Of a stretch of DNA of 64,000 nucleotides, positions 1,062-7,300 are shown in pieces. Each line of letters opens with the position of its first letter. The first letter of the stretch is position 1. Both the position numbers and the translations under genes were made by a program. Below the pieces are notes generated by a model. It was not told the DNA's origin. It did not search any database and worked only from the letters and a program-made list of their open reading frames with translations. This DNA is from a virus: IMG/VR virus record IMGVR_UViG_3300021963_000034, positions 62,001-126,000 of that record; one strand, written 5' to 3'.

Positions 1062-1244
1062 ATGCAAGACGAGTACCTCTCACGCTGCGTGGTGGACCCT
1101 ATCAAGCGTACAGTGTATCTGTATTCTAACGAAGGGTCAGAGAAGCAAGTGACCTGTGATACAGTAGAAGAATTTATGAATGTGCTAGAGTTTGTTCGTT
1201 CTGCAGTGGATGAAGAGACTCTCTCATACGCAAATCCACTTTAA
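1062..1244 (+). CDS. small conserved cyanophage protein, function unknown
   Basis: A 60-residue acidic protein beginning MQDEYLSRCVVDPIKRT. The phrase RTVYLYSNEGSEKQVTCDTVEEFMNVL reads as a short beta-hairpin followed by a helix. I recall similar small proteins in cyanomyoviruses but know of no assigned function. The start is fixed by the promoter directly upstream; no strong Shine-Dalgarno sequence is seen. The promoter suggests early expression. Confidence 0.75.
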   Translation: MQDEYLSRCVVDPIKRTVYLYSNEGSEKQVTCDTVEEFMNVLEFVRSAVDEETLSYANPL

Positions 1245-1307
1245 TTTCCATTTTTGGTCCAAAAATTTTCCCGGTAAAAATTGCCCTTATTACTTTTTTG
1301 AAAAAGT

Positions 1308-1511
1308 ATGGTTTATAAAATTTCATACAAAGACCTCAAAGAGGAACCAGTCAAAACCACTCCCGAAAATGTAAAAGAGTCAAATGAAGCACTCTTTACA
1401 GCAAAGTGGAATCTCCCTAAAGCAGCAAAGCACTGTGGAATGTCACAAAAAGAAATGAAGTTGACATTCTGGGAATATATCAAGTATAATCCTAGTACTT
1501 ACCAAGCGTAA
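1308..1511 (+). CDS. small conserved cyanophage protein with helix-turn-helix-like core
   Basis: A 67-residue protein. The middle, ALFTAKWNLPKAAKHCGMSQ, reads like a helix-turn-helix (short helices around AAKHCGMSQKEMK), so DNA binding is possible but unproven. It resembles a small protein common in T4-like cyanophages. It ends eight bases before the mature 5' end of the intron-bearing tRNA-Leu, so the two may share a transcript. The upstream gap (1245-1307) is AT-rich with no obvious promoter. Confidence 0.75.
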   Translation: MVYKISYKDLKEEPVKTTPENVKESNEALFTAKWNLPKAAKHCGMSQKEMKLTFWEYIKYNPSTYQA

Positions 1512-1518
1512 GTTTTTT

Positions 1519-1800
1519 GCGAGTATGGTGGAATCGGTAGACACACCAGACTTATGAAAATTGAGCCTCATTTAGGAAACTTTATGAGTGTAATTCCTCA
1601 AATTCGGTGAAACCTGTAAAATGGCAATACCGAGCCAAGCATCGCAAGATGAAGGTGTAGAGACTAGACGGGGAACACCTAAACCAAAAGGTATGGTGAA
1701 GGTATAGTCCAGACCACAAACCGAAAGGGTAGTGAAAACTATAGTGGTACGAAAATCTGTTGGGCGTATGCCCGTGGGAGTTCAAGTCTCCCTACTCGCA
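1519..1800 (+). tRNA. trnL(UAA): tRNA-Leu (anticodon UAA) interrupted by a group I intron
   Basis: Exon 1 is 1519-1553 and exon 2 is 1752-1800. The acceptor stem GCGAGTA (1519-1525) pairs with TACTCGC (1793-1799), followed by discriminator A1800; CCA is not encoded. Once spliced, the anticodon loop is CTTAAAA, reading UUA codons. The 27-43 position of the anticodon stem is a C-U mismatch. The long variable arm GGGC-GTAT-GCCC marks a class II (Leu) tRNA, and the T arm GGGAG-TTCAAGT-CTCCC is perfect. The break lies between U34 and A35 of the anticodon, the same site as the ancient cyanobacterial and plastid tRNA-Leu intron. UUA is an AT-rich codon that an AT-rich phage would benefit from supplying. 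Confidence 0.95.
1554..1751 (+). ncRNA. self-splicing group I intron (IC3-like, no ORF) in tRNA-Leu
   Basis: The 198-nt insert has all the classic core elements. P is AATTCGGTGAAACC (1601-1614) and Q is AATACCGAGCCAAGC (1626-1640), pairing as P4 TCGGT/ACCGA. R is GAGACTAGAC and S is TATAGTCC, pairing as P7 GACTA (1662-1666)/TAGTC (1705-1709). P6 is CATC-GCAA-GATG with a GNRA loop. A P8 hairpin (CACC...GGTG) and a P9 hairpin with a GAAA loop follow. The 5' splice site follows U1553, which can form the U-G wobble in P1 with GAG of TTGAGCC. The terminal base is G1751. The start resembles the Anabaena tRNA-Leu intron (AAAATTGAGCC). No protein is encoded inside, so mobility would need help from elsewhere. 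Confidence 0.93.
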
Positions 1801-1821
1801 TTAGAGTTCATACTCTAAATA
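1801..1821 (+). promoter_or_regulatory. hairpin overlapping a late promoter box (CTAAATA)
   Basis: TTAGAGT (1801-1807), loop TCAT, ACTCTAA (1812-1818) form a hairpin immediately after the tRNA. The T4-like late box CTAAATA (1815-1821) lies in its 3' arm. A late transcript would start about six bases further on and serve the gene at 1844. The hairpin may help define the tRNA 3' end. Confidence 0.5.
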
Positions 1822-1843
1822 AACAAAAGTAAGGGACTATTCT

Positions 1844-2113
1844 ATGAAATACAGAATAGATGCCAGATATGTTTGGTATAACAAAGGATCAATGGTTGTT
1901 CTTATGTATTTCATAAACCAGATTCCTTTTACTTTTGATGAACTCCCTGACGAATCTATATTTGACTTGGAGTTAGTAGAATTAGCAGACAAAGAAAGAA
2001 GGTTTGAACCAGAAGATCTATACCAGTCTTCTTACTATCTAATGATGGAAGAATGTCATCCTTTATTATACGAACTTGATCTGGAAAATCCTGAAATGTT
2101 GCCTGTTGATTAA
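1844..2113 (+). CDS. hypothetical acidic protein
   Basis: An 89-residue protein, strongly acidic (many D and E in residues 30-89) with an aromatic N-terminus (MKYRIDARYVWYN). No known motif is recognised and no transmembrane segment is convincing. It has a late-type promoter box 23 bases before its ATG and lies between the tRNA-Leu intron and the HNH endonuclease gene. Confidence 0.65.
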   Translation: MKYRIDARYVWYNKGSMVVLMYFINQIPFTFDELPDESIFDLELVELADKERRFEPEDLYQSSYYLMMEECHPLLYELDLENPEMLPVD

Positions 2114-2114
2114 G

Positions 2115-2141
2115 TTTGTAACTATAATAAATAGTTACAAA
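2115..2141 (+). promoter_or_regulatory. perfect inverted repeat with a late promoter box inside, upstream of the HNH gene
   Basis: TTTGTAACTAT (2115-2125), loop AATAA, ATAGTTACAAA (2131-2141) form an 11-bp perfect hairpin. The late box ATAAATA (2127-2133) spans the loop and 3' arm. Transcription from it would start near 2139 and lose the hairpin, whereas read-through RNA keeps it 13 bases from the ATG at 2155. The layout matches the leaders of the other three homing endonuclease genes here. Confidence 0.7.
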
Positions 2142-2154
2142 TCATATTTAAAAT

Positions 2155-2511
2155 ATGAAAACCTGTACTAAATGTGGACTATCCAAATCACTAACAGAAT
2201 TTCACTCTGCTGGTATAATAGATGGTAAAAAATATCTTCGTGGTGAATGCAAAGTTTGTCAGAAGAAAGTTGTAAAAGCAAGGACAAAATCTATTAAAGA
2301 AGATTATGTTTCTTGGAAAAAAACTTTGAAGTGTACCAGGTGTGGGTTTTCTGATTATCGTGCCCTCCAATTTCATCATATTGATGAAAAAGAGCATACT
2401 ATTGCAAATATGTTCCGTGGTGGATTTTCTCTAGAAAGTATAAAAAAAGAAGCAAAAAAGTGTGAAGTTCTTTGCGCCAACTGCCACCAAATACACCATT
2501 CGCCCCTATAG
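2155..2511 (+). CDS. HNH homing endonuclease (freestanding)
   Basis: A 118-residue protein. An N-terminal zinc finger-like unit (C4, C7, C32, C35) precedes a second C-x2-C (C60, C63). The HNH core follows: HH at 74-75, then C107-x2-C110 with N109 and H111 in VLCANCHQIHH. The family makes site-specific DNA nicks or breaks that promote spread of its own gene or a neighbouring intron. The last ten bases of the gene lie inside the tRNA-Thr gene; the stop TAG is 2509-2511. It begins 404 bases after the tRNA-Leu intron, so it could serve that ORF-less intron in trans (inference). Confidence 0.88.
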   Translation: MKTCTKCGLSKSLTEFHSAGIIDGKKYLRGECKVCQKKVVKARTKSIKEDYVSWKKTLKCTRCGFSDYRALQFHHIDEKEHTIANMFRGGFSLESIKKEAKKCEVLCANCHQIHHSPL

Positions 2512-2574
2512 CATAACGGTTACTGCATCCGCCTTGTAAGCGGAAGATTTTCGGTTCGATTCCGAATGGGGGCT
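2502..2574 (+). tRNA. trnT(UGU): tRNA-Thr (anticodon UGU)
   Basis: The acceptor GCCCCTA (2502-2508) pairs with TGGGGGC (2567-2573) with one T-G wobble; discriminator is T2574. The anticodon stem TCCGC/GCGGA encloses loop CTTGTAA, giving anticodon TGT, which reads ACA. The T arm TTCGG-TTCGATT-CCGAA is perfect. CCA is not encoded. The 5' end overlaps the HNH coding region by ten bases, so processing of this tRNA would truncate the HNH message. Confidence 0.95.
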
Positions 2575-2592
2575 CTGAGTTCTATAACTCCA

Positions 2593-2751
2593 ATGTCACT
2601 TATTTCACAACAAGACCGCCAAATGGTCATTGAAGCACTTGAATATTATGTTCAAAAACTTAAGGAAGATAACTGCACTCCTGCCTCTATCAGTGCATTC
2701 CAAACCCTCCTTAACTGGGTCGAACTGGAGCATTTCAAGCATGAAAATTAA
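2593..2751 (+). CDS. small hypothetical protein
   Basis: A 52-residue protein starting MSLISQQDRQMVIEALEYY, largely helical. The in-frame start at 2566 would lie within tRNA-Thr, so the ATG at 2593 is preferred. Its 3' end overlaps the next gene by 11 bases, suggesting coupled translation. No function is recognised. Confidence 0.65.
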   Translation: MSLISQQDRQMVIEALEYYVQKLKEDNCTPASISAFQTLLNWVELEHFKHEN

Positions 2752-2914
2752 TCTTTGGTATTGTAAAGACATGAAACAGTGGCGTTGGGTTTTAACTGAT
2801 GATAGTAGACCTATTCTTAAACAGGAATCTGGTCAGCAACCATTTCTCCGTGATGCTATGAATGATGTGGCAAATACTGTAGAATATATGTTAGAATGCA
2901 AACAAAGTGAGTAA
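2741..2914 (+). CDS. small conserved cyanophage protein
   Basis: A 57-residue protein, MKINLWYCKDMKQWRWVLTD..., ending with a helix that includes AMNDVANTVEYMLE. I recall very similar short proteins in cyanomyoviruses, with no known role. The ATG at 2741 overlaps the end of the upstream gene; the longer frame upstream is only its shadow. A terminator follows two bases after the stop. Confidence 0.75.
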   Translation: MKINLWYCKDMKQWRWVLTDDSRPILKQESGQQPFLRDAMNDVANTVEYMLECKQSE

Positions 2915-2916
2915 TT

Positions 2917-2967
2917 GGAGGCAGCAACTAGTGTCTTGGCGGATTTAGTTGCGTAAGGCCTCCTTTT
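2917..2967 (+). terminator. rho-independent terminator with an unusual 15-base loop
   Basis: GGAGGC (2917-2922) pairs with GCCTCC (2958-2963) and GCAACTA (2924-2930) with TAGTTGC (2946-2952), followed by TTTT. The loop (2931-2945) contains GTGTCTTGGCG, the exact complement of the bases just before the next start codon. Confidence 0.8.
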
Positions 2968-3004
2968 ATAGTATAATAAATAATAATAGTCAACGCCAAG
3001 ACAC
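2931..3004 (+). promoter_or_regulatory. long-range inverted repeat flanking a late promoter, ahead of the GIY-YIG gene
   Basis: GTGTCTTGGCG (2931-2941, the terminator loop) is the perfect reverse complement of CGCCAAGACAC (2994-3004), which ends one base before the ATG at 3006. Between them lies the late box ATAAATA (2976-2982), with an expected start near 2988. Read-through RNA can pair the loop with the initiation region. Late RNA lacks the left arm and stays open. Confidence 0.75.
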
Positions 3005-3005
3005 A

Positions 3006-3572
3006 ATGAACGAATACTACACTTACGCATATTTGCGTGAAGACGGAACACCTTACTACATTGGCAAAGGTAAAGGAAGAAGAGTTTATAATAGTCACAT
3101 TAGACAAAACAAAACAAATTTAAAACCTAAAGATAGTAGTAGAATTCTTCTTTTAAAGAAAAATCTTACAGAAGAGGAAGCAAGTAAACACGAAATTTAT
3201 ATGATTTATGTGTTTGGAAGAAAAGATTTAGGAACTGGTATTCTTCGTAATATGACTAATGGTGGAGATGGAATATCTGGATATTCTCATACCGAAGAAA
3301 CTAAAAAACTTCTTTCAGAAAAAACTTCTGGAAAAAATCACACTTGGTATGGGAGGGAACATACCGAAGAATCAAAAAGGAAAATGAGAGAATCTAGTAA
3401 AAATAGAGAAAGAAAACCTCATAGTGAAGAAACAAAAAAGAAAATGAGGGAGTCTGCTAAAAAATATTGGAAAGATGTAGGTAGAAATATTAATGGGGAA
3501 AATAATCCCTTTTATGGAAAATCACACAGTGAAGAAACTAAGAAAAAAATAGGAGATAATGTTAGGAAATGA
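3006..3572 (+). CDS. GIY-YIG homing endonuclease with NUMOD3-type repeats
   Basis: A 188-residue protein. The N-terminal GIY-YIG domain appears as YYTYAYL (4-10) and PYYIGKGKGRR (16-26), with the conserved arginine pair. At least two NUMOD3-like DNA-binding motifs follow (HTWYGREHTEESKRKMRES and NNPFYGKSHSEETKKKIG). The protein stops directly after the last one, so a longer C-terminal domain may be missing. The family makes double-strand breaks in cognate phage DNA and spreads by repair. The start at 3006 is chosen because the motif begins there and the leader inverted repeat ends there; the 2949 start would lie in the terminator. Confidence 0.88.
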   Translation: MNEYYTYAYLREDGTPYYIGKGKGRRVYNSHIRQNKTNLKPKDSSRILLLKKNLTEEEASKHEIYMIYVFGRKDLGTGILRNMTNGGDGISGYSHTEETKKLLSEKTSGKNHTWYGREHTEESKRKMRESSKNRERKPHSEETKKKMRESAKKYWKDVGRNINGENNPFYGKSHSEETKKKIGDNVRK

Positions 3573-3590
3573 GTACAAATACTTAGTTTT

Positions 3591-4232
3591 ATGAAAAGTG
3601 ACTTCTATATAGAAAGAGTGACCAAAAAGGAACTTGAATCACTCCTTTTAACTTATCATTATCTTAAAGATGAGAGTAAAACATACAAGTCGGGTTTCAA
3701 CTATGGACTTTATAGAAACACTTTCACAGATGTCCTTAGAATTGGCAACTGTCTTGGTGCTTGCATTTTTACTGGTCTCCCAGTTCCAGAAATAGCAAAA
3801 GGAGCATTTGGATTAAATCGTAATGAACAACAAGGACTTTTCGAACTTTCAAGACTTTGCATCGAACCTAGTACGCAGTCACGAGAATATAACATCACTT
3901 CTTGGTTTGTGTCAAAGGCGATTAGACAACTTCGAAAAGATACTGAAGTTAAAGCAATCCTTTCTTATGCTGATTCAAATCACCATTCTGGTACAATTTA
4001 TCGCGCTTGCAACTTTAAGTATTACGGTCTCACGGATCGAAAAAAAGATTTCTATTATTCAGACGGAACTAAACACTCTCGCGGAAAAGTAAAAGGTTCT
4101 GAAGGTGAGTGGAAAGAAAGAAGTAGGAAGCACAGATACTTAATGGTATTTGATAAAAAACTTCAAAAAAGGTTGACTTGGAAAGAAGAGTCGTGGTATA
4201 ATAATCAAGACGATACTGAATCGTTACAGTGA
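3591..4232 (+). CDS. Mom-like putative DNA-modification protein (GNAT-type fold)
   Basis: A 213-residue protein with the motif set I associate with phage Mu Mom relatives: ELSRLC (85-90), NITSWFVSKA (101-110) and SYADSNHHSGTIYRACNF (125-142). In Mu, Mom modifies adenine and protects phage DNA from restriction. If the likeness holds, this protein would modify cyanophage DNA against host nucleases. The C-terminus is basic (KERSRKHRYL), fitting nucleic-acid contact. It begins 18 bases after the GIY-YIG stop and ends just before a strong terminator. Assignment is by motif memory only. Confidence 0.6.
   Translation: MKSDFYIERVTKKELESLLLTYHYLKDESKTYKSGFNYGLYRNTFTDVLRIGNCLGACIFTGLPVPEIAKGAFGLNRNEQQGLFELSRLCIEPSTQSREYNITSWFVSKAIRQLRKDTEVKAILSYADSNHHSGTIYRACNFKYYGLTDRKKDFYYSDGTKHSRGKVKGSEGEWKERSRKHRYLMVFDKKLQKRLTWKEESWYNNQDDTESLQ
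4173..4202 (+). promoter_or_regulatory. possible sigma70 promoter inside the 3' end of the Mom-like gene
   Basis: TTGACT (4173-4178), an 18-base spacer ending in an extended -10 TGG, and TATAAT (4197-4202). It points at the terminator only about 50 bases away, so its product would be an RNA of about 65 nt or an RNA that reads through into the fibre gene. It may be a chance match. Confidence 0.4.
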
Positions 4233-4250
4233 CCCAAAAAGTGTGACTTC

Positions 4251-4276
4251 AAAACCTCCTTTTGGAGGTTTTGTTG
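4251..4276 (+). terminator. rho-independent terminator
   Basis: AAAACCTCC (4251-4259), loop TTTT, GGAGGTTTT (4264-4272): a perfect 9-bp stem ending in a T-run. It separates the small-gene region from the fibre genes and is nearly symmetrical, so it could act in both directions. Confidence 0.88.
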
Positions 4277-4280
4277 TATG

Positions 4281-4287
4281 ATAAATA
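4281..4287 (+). promoter_or_regulatory. late promoter box ATAAATA
   Basis: ATAAATA lies directly after the terminator and 30 bases before the ATG of the giant fibre gene at 4318. T4-like phages use TATAAATA-type boxes read by a gp55-type sigma factor, and cyanophages use ATAAATA or CTAAATA. Confidence 0.8.
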
Positions 4288-4317
4288 ATCCATAACGGAA
4301 CTATAAGTATTAATAAG

Positions 4318-7300
4318 ATGGGTCTTTCACGTCTCGATAATTTTCTGAAATCAGTACGCGGAACGATTTTATATGTTGATCCAAATAGTATTGACTCTAC
4401 AGATAGCATTGAAAATCAGGGCAATAGTTTAACTAGACCATTTAAAACAATTCAACGCGCACTTATTGAGGCAGCAAGATTCTCATATCAAAGAGGATTG
4501 GATAATGATAGATTTGGAAAAACAACAATTCTTCTTTATCCTGGAGATCATATTGTAGATAATCGTCCTGGATGGATACCATTTGAATCTAATAATTATT
4601 TGCTTAGAAGTGGAGCAACTTCTAATGTATTTCCTCCATTCGATTTAACATCAAATTTTGATTTAACTTCTCAAGATAATCAACTTTATAAATTAAATTC
4701 AATACATGGTGGAGTTATAATCCCAAGAGGAACTTCTATTGTTGGTTTAGATCTTAGAAAAACTAGAATTAGACCACTCTATGTGCCAAATCCTGAAAAT
4801 AATAATATTGAAAGATCTGCAATTTTTAGAGTAACTGGATCTTGTTATTTTTGGCAATTTACTTTCTTAGATGCAGATCCTAATGGTGTATGTTATAAAG
4901 ATTATACTACAAATACTTTTGTTCCTAACTTTTCTCACCATAAATTGACTGCATTTGAATATGCGGATGGTGTAAATTCTGTGAACATTGCAGATGACTT
5001 TTTGATATATTCTGCTGAAAGAACTGACTTGGATATGTATTATGAAAAAGTTGGTCTTGCATATGGACAAGCATCTGGAAGAGAAGTTCAACCAGATTTC
5101 CCTGTTGCTGGAATTAATATTCAGTCAAAAGTTGATGAATATCGTATTGTAGGATCTCGTGGTGCTGAGATTGGTATTTCAAGTATTCGTGCTGGAGATG
5201 GAGTAACTGCAACCACAACTATCACTGTAGACCTACAAGAAGTTCTTCCTGGACTAGACGTAGATACTCCAATTAGAATTGAAGGTGTAGGCGTAGATGG
5301 TTATGATGGACAGTTTGTTATCAGTGAAGTCAATAGTCCAACTCAAATTTTATATAAAGTTCAAAACCCACCATTACAAGCACTTCCTTCCCTCACCAAC
5401 GCAACATTAAATATAACAATTGATACTGTTACTTCAGCATCTCCATATATTTTCAACTGTTCGCTAAGATCCGTTTATGGTATGTGTGGAATGCTTGCTG
5501 ACGGAAGCAAAGCGGATGGATTTAAGAGTATGATTGTCGCCCAGTTTACTGGTGTCGGTCTTCAAAAAGATAATAGAGCGTTTGTAAAATATAATTCTTC
5601 ATCGGGAACATATGAAGACTTCACTGCATTTGGTAACGAAAATATTCAATCTGATAGTCGAGCAGTATATAAACCTTCTTATGAAAATTTTCACATCAAA
5701 TGTCAAAATGATGCATATATCCAAGTAGTATCTGTATTTGCTATTGGATATGCTGGTCAATTTGTTGTAGATACTGGTGGAGATCAATCCATCAATAACT
5801 CAAATTCAAACTTTGGAGCAAAAGCTCTTGTAGCAAAAGGTTTTAGAAATAGTGCATTCTCCAGAGATGATGTTGGATATATTACTCACGTTATTCCTCC
5901 CAAGTTCTTAGAAACTACAGAGGTAAATGTTGAATATGATTCTATCGATGTTAGTAAGACCGTAAGTGTTGGAAATACAAGTAGATTATATCTTTATAAC
6001 CAAAATAATCAAGGCGTTTCTCCAGAAGGTGTTATAGAAGGTTATCGTTTAGGTGCCAAAATTAATGATACTCTTAATGTTTTAATTAACCAAGGAGGAA
6101 GTGCAACTGAGTATTCTTCTAAAATTGTCATGCCAAGCAGTGAAAATACTGCTTCAGAAAAGAAATTTATTGTGGGAAGAAGCACTGTAGGAATTAATAG
6201 TATTGCATCAAATACTATTACATTCACAAAGTATCATACTTTTGAAAATGGAGAAACTGTTCGTGTAATATCTAATACAGGTCAACTTCCAGATGGATTA
6301 GAACCAAATCAAACTTACTATGCAATTACTTCTGGTGTTGGTACTGATAGAATAAAACTGGCAAAAACTCTCAATGATGCAATTAGTTTAAATGCTCTTA
6401 CTATTAATAGTAAAGGTGGAGTTCTAAATGTTATCAGTAGAGTTTCTGATAAAAAACCTGGAGATTATGGACATCCTATTCAATATGACACTACAAACTC
6501 TCAGTGGTATGTAAATGTTTCTTCAGCATCAACCGAAAATACAATTTATCCTACAATTGTTGGGTTGGGAACAACTGTTCTTGGTTCTGCAACTCCTAGA
6601 ACATATATTAAGAGAAATCCTGATACAAGAAGTGTAATTGATACTGCATATAGACTCCGTTATGTAATTCCAGCAGATTCAACTCTCTCCGGTCGTATAC
6701 CAATTGAAGGATATGTAATTCAAGAATCAAATAGTTCTATTGGATCTTTAAACGCAGAAGTTGGATATCAATTCCATCCAACAGGTGCAACACTTTCTAA
6801 TTCTACTCAACTAAGAAATCCAAGAATTATTGCGAATGCAAGTTGGTCTTCTGGTACTGCAAGAATAGTAACAGAACTTCCTCACGACCTTCAGGTTGGA
6901 TCTACTGTTGAAATAGTAAACATTAAGAGTACTAATAATACTGCGGGAATCGCTAATACTGCTTACAATGGCACATTTTCCATTTCTGGAATTAGTAGTG
7001 CAAAACAATTTACTGTGAGCATTCCAAATAATCCAGGAACATTCACAAACGATACCTCAACTAGAACAACATCTCTACCATATTTTAGAAAAAAACAGTT
7101 TAAAAATACTTATATTGTCTATAAGAGTCAGGAAATCCAAAAGTACATTCCTGGTGAAAGGGATGGAATATATCATTTGATTGTTGTTAATGCATCAAAT
7201 TCGCCTTCAATATCTCCATTTGAAAACGAAAAGTTCTTACAACCAATTCAAAATCTATACCCACAAACAAATAGAGATAATCCAAACTCAGATCCAAAAG

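Follow-up and report, generated by a model that had tools for sequence, protein, structure and literature searches.

A group I intron in the tRNA-Leu(UAA) gene of a phage and its HNH-associated phage relatives

Known introns and the phage locus

The textbook example of an intron of ancient origin, passed down together with cyanobacteria and chloroplasts, is that of tRNA-Leu(UAA). A gamma-proteobacterial case was reportedly described by Vepritskiy et al. in 2002, and Zeng, Bonocora and Shub are said to have found, in 2009, a cyanophage psbA intron accompanied by the free-standing endonuclease F-CphI. Introns with a core related to the one analysed here also lie in phage protein genes (the capsid gene of pelagiphage HTVC120P, polA of crAss-like phages, Vibrio phage VEN, and the terminase gene of Staphylococcus phage CF5), but these are inserted in coding genes and give lower model scores. 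According to a 2014 review, all phage introns then known were in protein genes despite the many tRNA genes of phages (PMC3984707), and the genome paper of Agrobacterium phage Atu_ph07 does not mention a tRNA-Leu(UAA) intron (PMC6102473). Searches of the openly licensed literature yielded no earlier description of group I introns in tRNA genes of phages. Intron class and insertion site are known already; what is new is the population in phages and its link to endonucleases.

The stretch of DNA analysed (the window) comprises 64,000 nt, positions 62,001-126,000 of the 153,555-base IMG/VR record IMGVR_UViG_3300021963_000034. It was assigned to a cyanophage because of its tail-fibre genes and its 85% identity to Synechococcus phage S-SRM01 over 3.6 kb; the virus is probably a T4-like phage with Synechococcus as host. 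We consider it likely, with a probability of roughly 0.87, that a phage tRNA-Leu(UAA) gene in the window is interrupted by a catalytic group I intron, and that this intron belongs to a homing, HNH-linked phage lineage which has also moved by cassette exchange. The strong host-type promoter directly upstream would drive transcription of a precursor, which would fold into helices P1-P9 and excise the intron by two guanosine-started transesterifications, and joining of the exons would yield a UUA-reading tRNA. The window copy would be one member of a large phage-borne lineage that homes among phages at one site, often with an HNH gene inside the intron or beside the tRNA, and that may additionally spread when entire tRNA cassettes are exchanged.

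The split tRNA-Leu(UAA) gene and its intron

The first-pass annotation had placed a phage-borne tRNA-Leu(UAA) gene, split in the anticodon by a group I intron, at positions 1519-1800 of the window, and these coordinates proved exact: a group I intron of 198 nt separates U34 from A35. The exons, when joined in silico, were recognised by ARAGORN as an 86-nt tRNA-Leu(taa) with a normal fold. With the unspliced gene, plain ARAGORN gave no tRNA call, and with introns allowed it miscalled the gene as tRNA-Tyr(ata). Genes split in this way are overlooked or misnamed by standard annotation. The features of the locus are as follows.

1461..1490, + strand: sigma-70 promoter TTGACA-18-TATAAT, a perfect 12/12 match, 28 nt 5' of the tRNA and within the preceding ORF
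1519..1553, + strand: 5' exon of tRNA-Leu(UAA), ending CCAGACTT through U34, aligned with intronless S-CAM4, DSL-LC02 and contig L083
1551..1565, + strand: P1, exon CUU(A) pairing with intron UGAG, with U.G at the 5' splice site
1554..1751, + strand: group I intron, 198 nt, starting ATGAAAATTGAG and ending GTGGTACG, with the terminal G at 1751
1567..1588, + strand: P2 with a GAAA tetraloop, two outer pairs lost in most relatives
1594-1599/1670-1675 (span 1594..1675), + strand: P3, enclosing P4-P6; in 6/6 pairs both sides have changed, with 98.9% pairing
1603-1608/1629-1634, + strand: P4, from fold and covariation
1613-1614/1623-1624, + strand: P5, from fold and covariation
1635-1636/1654-1655, + strand: P6, from fold and covariation
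1640-1643/1648-1651, + strand: P6a, from fold and covariation
1662-1666/1705-1709, + strand: P7, the guanosine-binding helix, forming a pseudoknot with P3; 100% pairing over the 45 sequences and compensatory changes
1676-1679/1695-1698, + strand: P8, inside P7, from fold and covariation
1713-1717/1744-1748, + strand: P9.0, with P9 within 1713..1748, from fold and covariation
1729-1733/1738-1742, + strand: P9a with a GAAA tetraloop, from fold and covariation
1752..1800, + strand: 3' exon of tRNA-Leu(UAA), AAAATCTG...CTCGCA, from A35 to the discriminator A73, with no CCA encoded
1844..2113, + strand: conserved cyanophage ORF of 89 aa (phrog_4134, function unknown), the syntenic anchor 3' of the tRNA

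A covariance-model search, which had been proposed earlier as a check, matched RF00028 (group I intron) to positions 1544-1733 over the full model length, with 62.9 bits against a curated gathering cut-off of 50 and an E value of 1.3e-13; by this score the intron is a member of group I. Our own intron model, R1, scored the window at 240 bits, the window being among the 45 sequences from which R1 was built. The conserved elements listed in the first-pass annotation, the terminal G and the U before the 5' splice site among them, were confirmed. A P1-P9 fold was drawn by hand, with the P7 pseudoknot, and has zero mismatches in the window. It was then tested on 45 aligned introns of phage, cyanobacterial and proteobacterial origin. 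In this alignment 92.0% of the cells were paired compared with 72.7% in shuffles, a figure which is somewhat favoured by drawing the fold on one of the aligned sequences, though not to this degree. Both sides had changed in 41 of the 55 pairs, and the covariation score was 0.519, compared with 0.171 after shuffling and at most 0.107 when the partners were slid. The U.G pair at the 5' splice site was invariant (45/45), and G1751 is the intron-terminal G. The P8 and P9 extensions are partly unconserved, like the two outer pairs of P2, so these details apply only to the window and close relatives.

Introns of subgroup IC3 are inserted in the anticodon loop and have a compact P1-P9 structure without P5abc or P7.1/7.2, with GNRA loops L2 and L9. 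The window intron has these properties, with GAAA in L2 and L9a, which places it in IC3 on features only. No ORF was found inside the 198 nt, and the window copy therefore encodes no endonuclease of its own. From its structure the intron is predicted to be catalytic and self-splicing.

Decay of the intron in a tRNA gene that is no longer functional was considered as well, since the anticodon stem of the window tRNA has one C-U mismatch at position 27-43. The same mismatch is, however, shared with intronless cyanophage tRNA-Leu genes, the conserved helices of the window copy have no unpaired base, near-identical intron copies occur in other contigs (98% to L092), and the promoter is perfect; loss of function is very improbable. 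The promoter was assessed in a set of 80 viral contigs sharing the neighbouring 89-aa ORF, in 77 of which the tRNA could be read. With the best match within 75 nt 5' of the tRNA as the measure, 12/12 was reached at 42 of these 77 syntenic tRNA loci compared with 8 of 2000 random windows. TTA is the top leucine codon in the long ORFs of the window (34% of leucine codons), and a UUA-reading phage tRNA would plausibly be helpful for this reason. Use of the spliced tRNA by the phage is therefore plausible. An inverted repeat, TTAGAGTtcatACTCTAA, abuts the 3' end of the tRNA at 1801-1818; it has no T-run and could form a trailer hairpin.

Occurrence among phages, empty sites and HNH proteins

The viral occurrences were tallied by pooling the syntenic set and three phage-collection records with the results of two exact-pattern IMG/VR scans. 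Interrupted tRNA-Leu(UAA) genes were found at no fewer than 103 viral loci, with at least 78 distinct introns, all at the same insertion position; at least 17 of these distinct introns are 400 nt or longer. Among the carriers are cyanophages, huge phages that have not been cultured (LR756511 and LR756501, of 595 and 735 kb) and Atu_ph07, which is in culture. None of the cultured cyanophages of the phage collection has a tRNA-Leu(UAA) intron. The intron of Atu_ph07 (278 nt, unannotated) shares tRNA, site and lineage with that of the window, but this is a jumbo phage of an alphaproteobacterium and its intron has a longer P8 region. The window's own intron recurs in independent contigs (L011, L018, L036, L060 and others), which excludes an assembly artefact. 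Phages are a large home of the tRNA-Leu(UAA) intron, one apparently unreported in the literature.

One phage contig, L241, has three interrupted tRNA genes; its region 1163-5744 holds 20 predicted tRNA genes, at least three of them split by introns of the window lineage, and a fourth intron-like match. One split tRNA was also seen in Gordonia phage Daredevil, and a Microcoleus phage record lists a tRNA-Arg of 286 nt, noted from the annotated length alone. Matches in Streptomyces phages were rejected, as they cover the 3' half of the tRNA only and lie in genes annotated as intact tRNA-Leu(tag). The pattern GACTTAAAATTGAGCC, searched in genomes and viral contigs, gave 90 and 8 matches in unrelated bacteria, about the chance expectation for a 16-mer, and was discarded.

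Empty sites were found in cultured Synechococcus phages: S-CAM4, SynMITS9220M01 and DSL-LC02 have uninterrupted tRNA-Leu(UAA) genes with the junction CCAGACTT|AAAATCTGT, followed 3' in S-CAM4 and SynMITS9220M01 by tRNA-Thr(UGT), as in the window. Among the 77 readable syntenic loci the intron was present in 12 and missing in 65, and a 78th contig ends inside the intron. When the intron state was placed on the tree of the neighbouring gene, 10 changes were required, at least 6 of them forced by supported branches.

Such a patchy distribution could be produced without any intron homing if whole tRNA cassettes were swapped between cyanophages by ordinary recombination and the intron were a passenger. 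Contigs L036 and L042 have near-identical flanks and entirely different tRNA genes, so replacement of the whole cassette does occur, and some of the presence and absence is due to this and not to intron gain. In contrast, the flank and the 5' exon of L076 match those of L083, and a clean intron insertion sets the two apart. Two unrelated tRNA backbones carry the intron, the short one being split by a like intron at the equivalent anticodon-loop position in L013 and L051; the site is common to very different phages, and a dedicated HNH family exists. As the whole explanation, passive exchange deserves weight but is unlikely, and we favour homing with cassette exchange in addition. It was also observed that 30 of the 65 intronless syntenic loci (L015, L021, L039, L042 and L088 among them) have a 74-77-nt tRNA whose anticodon is UAA but which, unlike a normal class II tRNA-Leu, has a short variable loop.

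The HNH proteins were found in two arrangements. Several of the long phage introns encode HNH proteins (Pfam HNH), and free-standing proteins of the family, 40-67% identical to the reference, lie directly 3' of cyanophage tRNA-Leu(UAA) genes, both intronless (L012, L038, L049, L081) and interrupted (L062, L076). A protein-based scan was made with no tRNA criterion and the 80 closest members were retained. According to ARAGORN and the intron model combined, 41 of these best 80 members lie in or adjoin like introns and 33 adjoin an intact tRNA-Leu(UAA), giving 74/80, a count whose nearest hits are biased toward this association because the query was taken from tRNA-Leu neighbours. The association with tRNA-Leu(UAA) also holds for members at about 50% identity. 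The family has the signature of a homing endonuclease for the anticodon loop, which would cut there whether borne by the intron or supplied from next door. The arrangement in L062 and L076, an ORF-less intron with an adjoining free-standing HNH gene, resembles that of psbA and F-CphI; here the target differs, being a tRNA anticodon loop, and the window copy lacks such a neighbour. Indeed, no member of the dedicated family was detected in the 153-kb contig of the window, which is possibly incomplete and was searched without a positive control. For this reason the window intron may be settled or reliant on coinfecting phages. Taken together, dozens of phage lineages with the intron at one bond, intronless alleles and the HNH family form an apparently active mobile pool.

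Other ORFs near the tRNA were also inspected. A small HNH-like ORF at 2155-2511, with a sub-threshold Pfam HNH match and its 3' end within the tRNA-Thr gene at 2502, was rejected as a partner of the intron, as it is also found next to tRNA-Leu genes that lack an intron and is missing next to most of the introns. A NUMOD3-repeat ORF resembling GIY-YIG homing endonucleases (2949-3572), directly 3' of the tRNA cluster, does not track intron presence. It is followed at 3591-4232 by a Mom-family DNA modification protein (Pfam PF25680, E 2.9e-23).

Relation to cyanobacterial and proteobacterial introns

RF00028 matched in 85 of 292 cyanobacterial genomes, and the 54 cyanobacterial loci checked were all tRNA-Leu(UAA) genes with an insertion bond identical to that of the window. 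Among Pseudomonadota, 15 of 399 genomes were above the RF00028 cut-off, and Pseudomonadota and Bacteroidota also have tRNA-Leu(UAA) introns at the U34/A35 site. The cyanobacterial intron is like that of the window in gene, anticodon, bond, P1 (CUU/GAG with U.G) and P1-P9 layout; it differs in P7 and P9.0, in its 3' end (GAGAATG versus GTGGTACG) and in forming a separate clade. The proteobacterial introns (L485, L488-L506, L532) have the same site and the same 3' end, GTGGTANG, but they are chromosomal (one is on a plasmid), GC-rich and in their own clade, and their P1/P2 start is GAGTGC, compared with GAGCCT in the window.

The window intron was closest to other phage introns (65-97% identity), with 65-74% identity to proteobacterial and 54-66% to cyanobacterial ones. 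A proteobacterial-only model scored it at 178.9 bits and a cyanobacterial-only model at 139.8 bits (E 2e-40), compared with 235-248 bits for the latter on true cyanobacterial introns. A second tree was calculated with 11 long-branched rows left out and with no plastid sequences. In this tree the cyanobacterial introns form one clade (100/99) with the window outside it, and the proteobacterial tRNA introns form another (99/88), with two other proteobacterial rows near the cyanobacteria. The phage introns are a paraphyletic backbone between the two cellular clades. Nesting of the window clade in the cyanobacterial clade was rejected (p-AU 0.00011), whereas grouping with cyanobacteria (p-AU 0.25) or with proteobacteria (p-AU 0.58) was allowed by the AU test, as was phage monophyly (p-AU 0.52, and 0.67 with three rows removed). 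The backbone is weak, as in two cases a constrained search arrived at a better tree than the unconstrained one. We do not claim that the phage introns are ancestral, because the AU tests allow alternatives and the search missed better trees.

These results bear on a recent capture of the intron from the tRNA-Leu gene of the cyanobacterial host. The insertion site is shared, the first ~40 nt are similar and the host is probably Synechococcus, given the match to S-SRM01; however, the identity to cyanobacterial introns is low, the cyanobacterial clade is closed, and the 3' third (P7-P9.0, with GTGGTACG) is of the phage and proteobacterial kind. Rejection of the nesting argues against recent capture, which is largely refuted and scarcely credible. 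The term 'cyanobacterial-type' used in the first-pass annotation thus holds for the insertion site and not for the body of the intron, and the likeness of the early bases, which is real in the P1/P2 start (AAAATTGAGCC...AGTG), is confined to the first quarter. The proposal that phage copies are vehicles of horizontal transfer gained support for movement among phages, while transfer between phage and cell is unsupported in either direction.

Phage, cyanobacterial and proteobacterial introns might also have arrived independently at one site from different group I introns. The weak backbone would allow this, as would the p-AU for phage monophyly, and relatives of these introns interrupt protein genes as well as other tRNAs. 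Against it, all of them can be aligned over their full length and have helices in common, and the cross-scoring is strong, even that of the cyanobacterial-only model on the window; convergence appears distinctly improbable. A further reading, suggested by the paraphyletic phage backbone, is that phages are the main reservoir of the tRNA-Leu(UAA) intron, its mobility maintained by an HNH family specific to the anticodon loop, and that the cyanobacterial and plastid copies on one side and the proteobacterial copies on the other are two separate settlements out of the phage pool, not vertical relics alone. Given that phage monophyly is allowed as well, this is put forward tentatively and is rather doubtful. 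With the phage population at hand, a phage origin of the cellular copies becomes testable.

Plasmids carry such introns too. A conjugative Bradyrhizobium plasmid (L532) bears an interrupted tRNA-Leu(UAA) gene. A related intron sequence (145 bits) was noticed near aac(3)-IId on an E. coli IncB/O/K/Z conjugative plasmid (L533, 809-1061), and the window intron as query matched over 1200 plasmid records at 60-80% identity.
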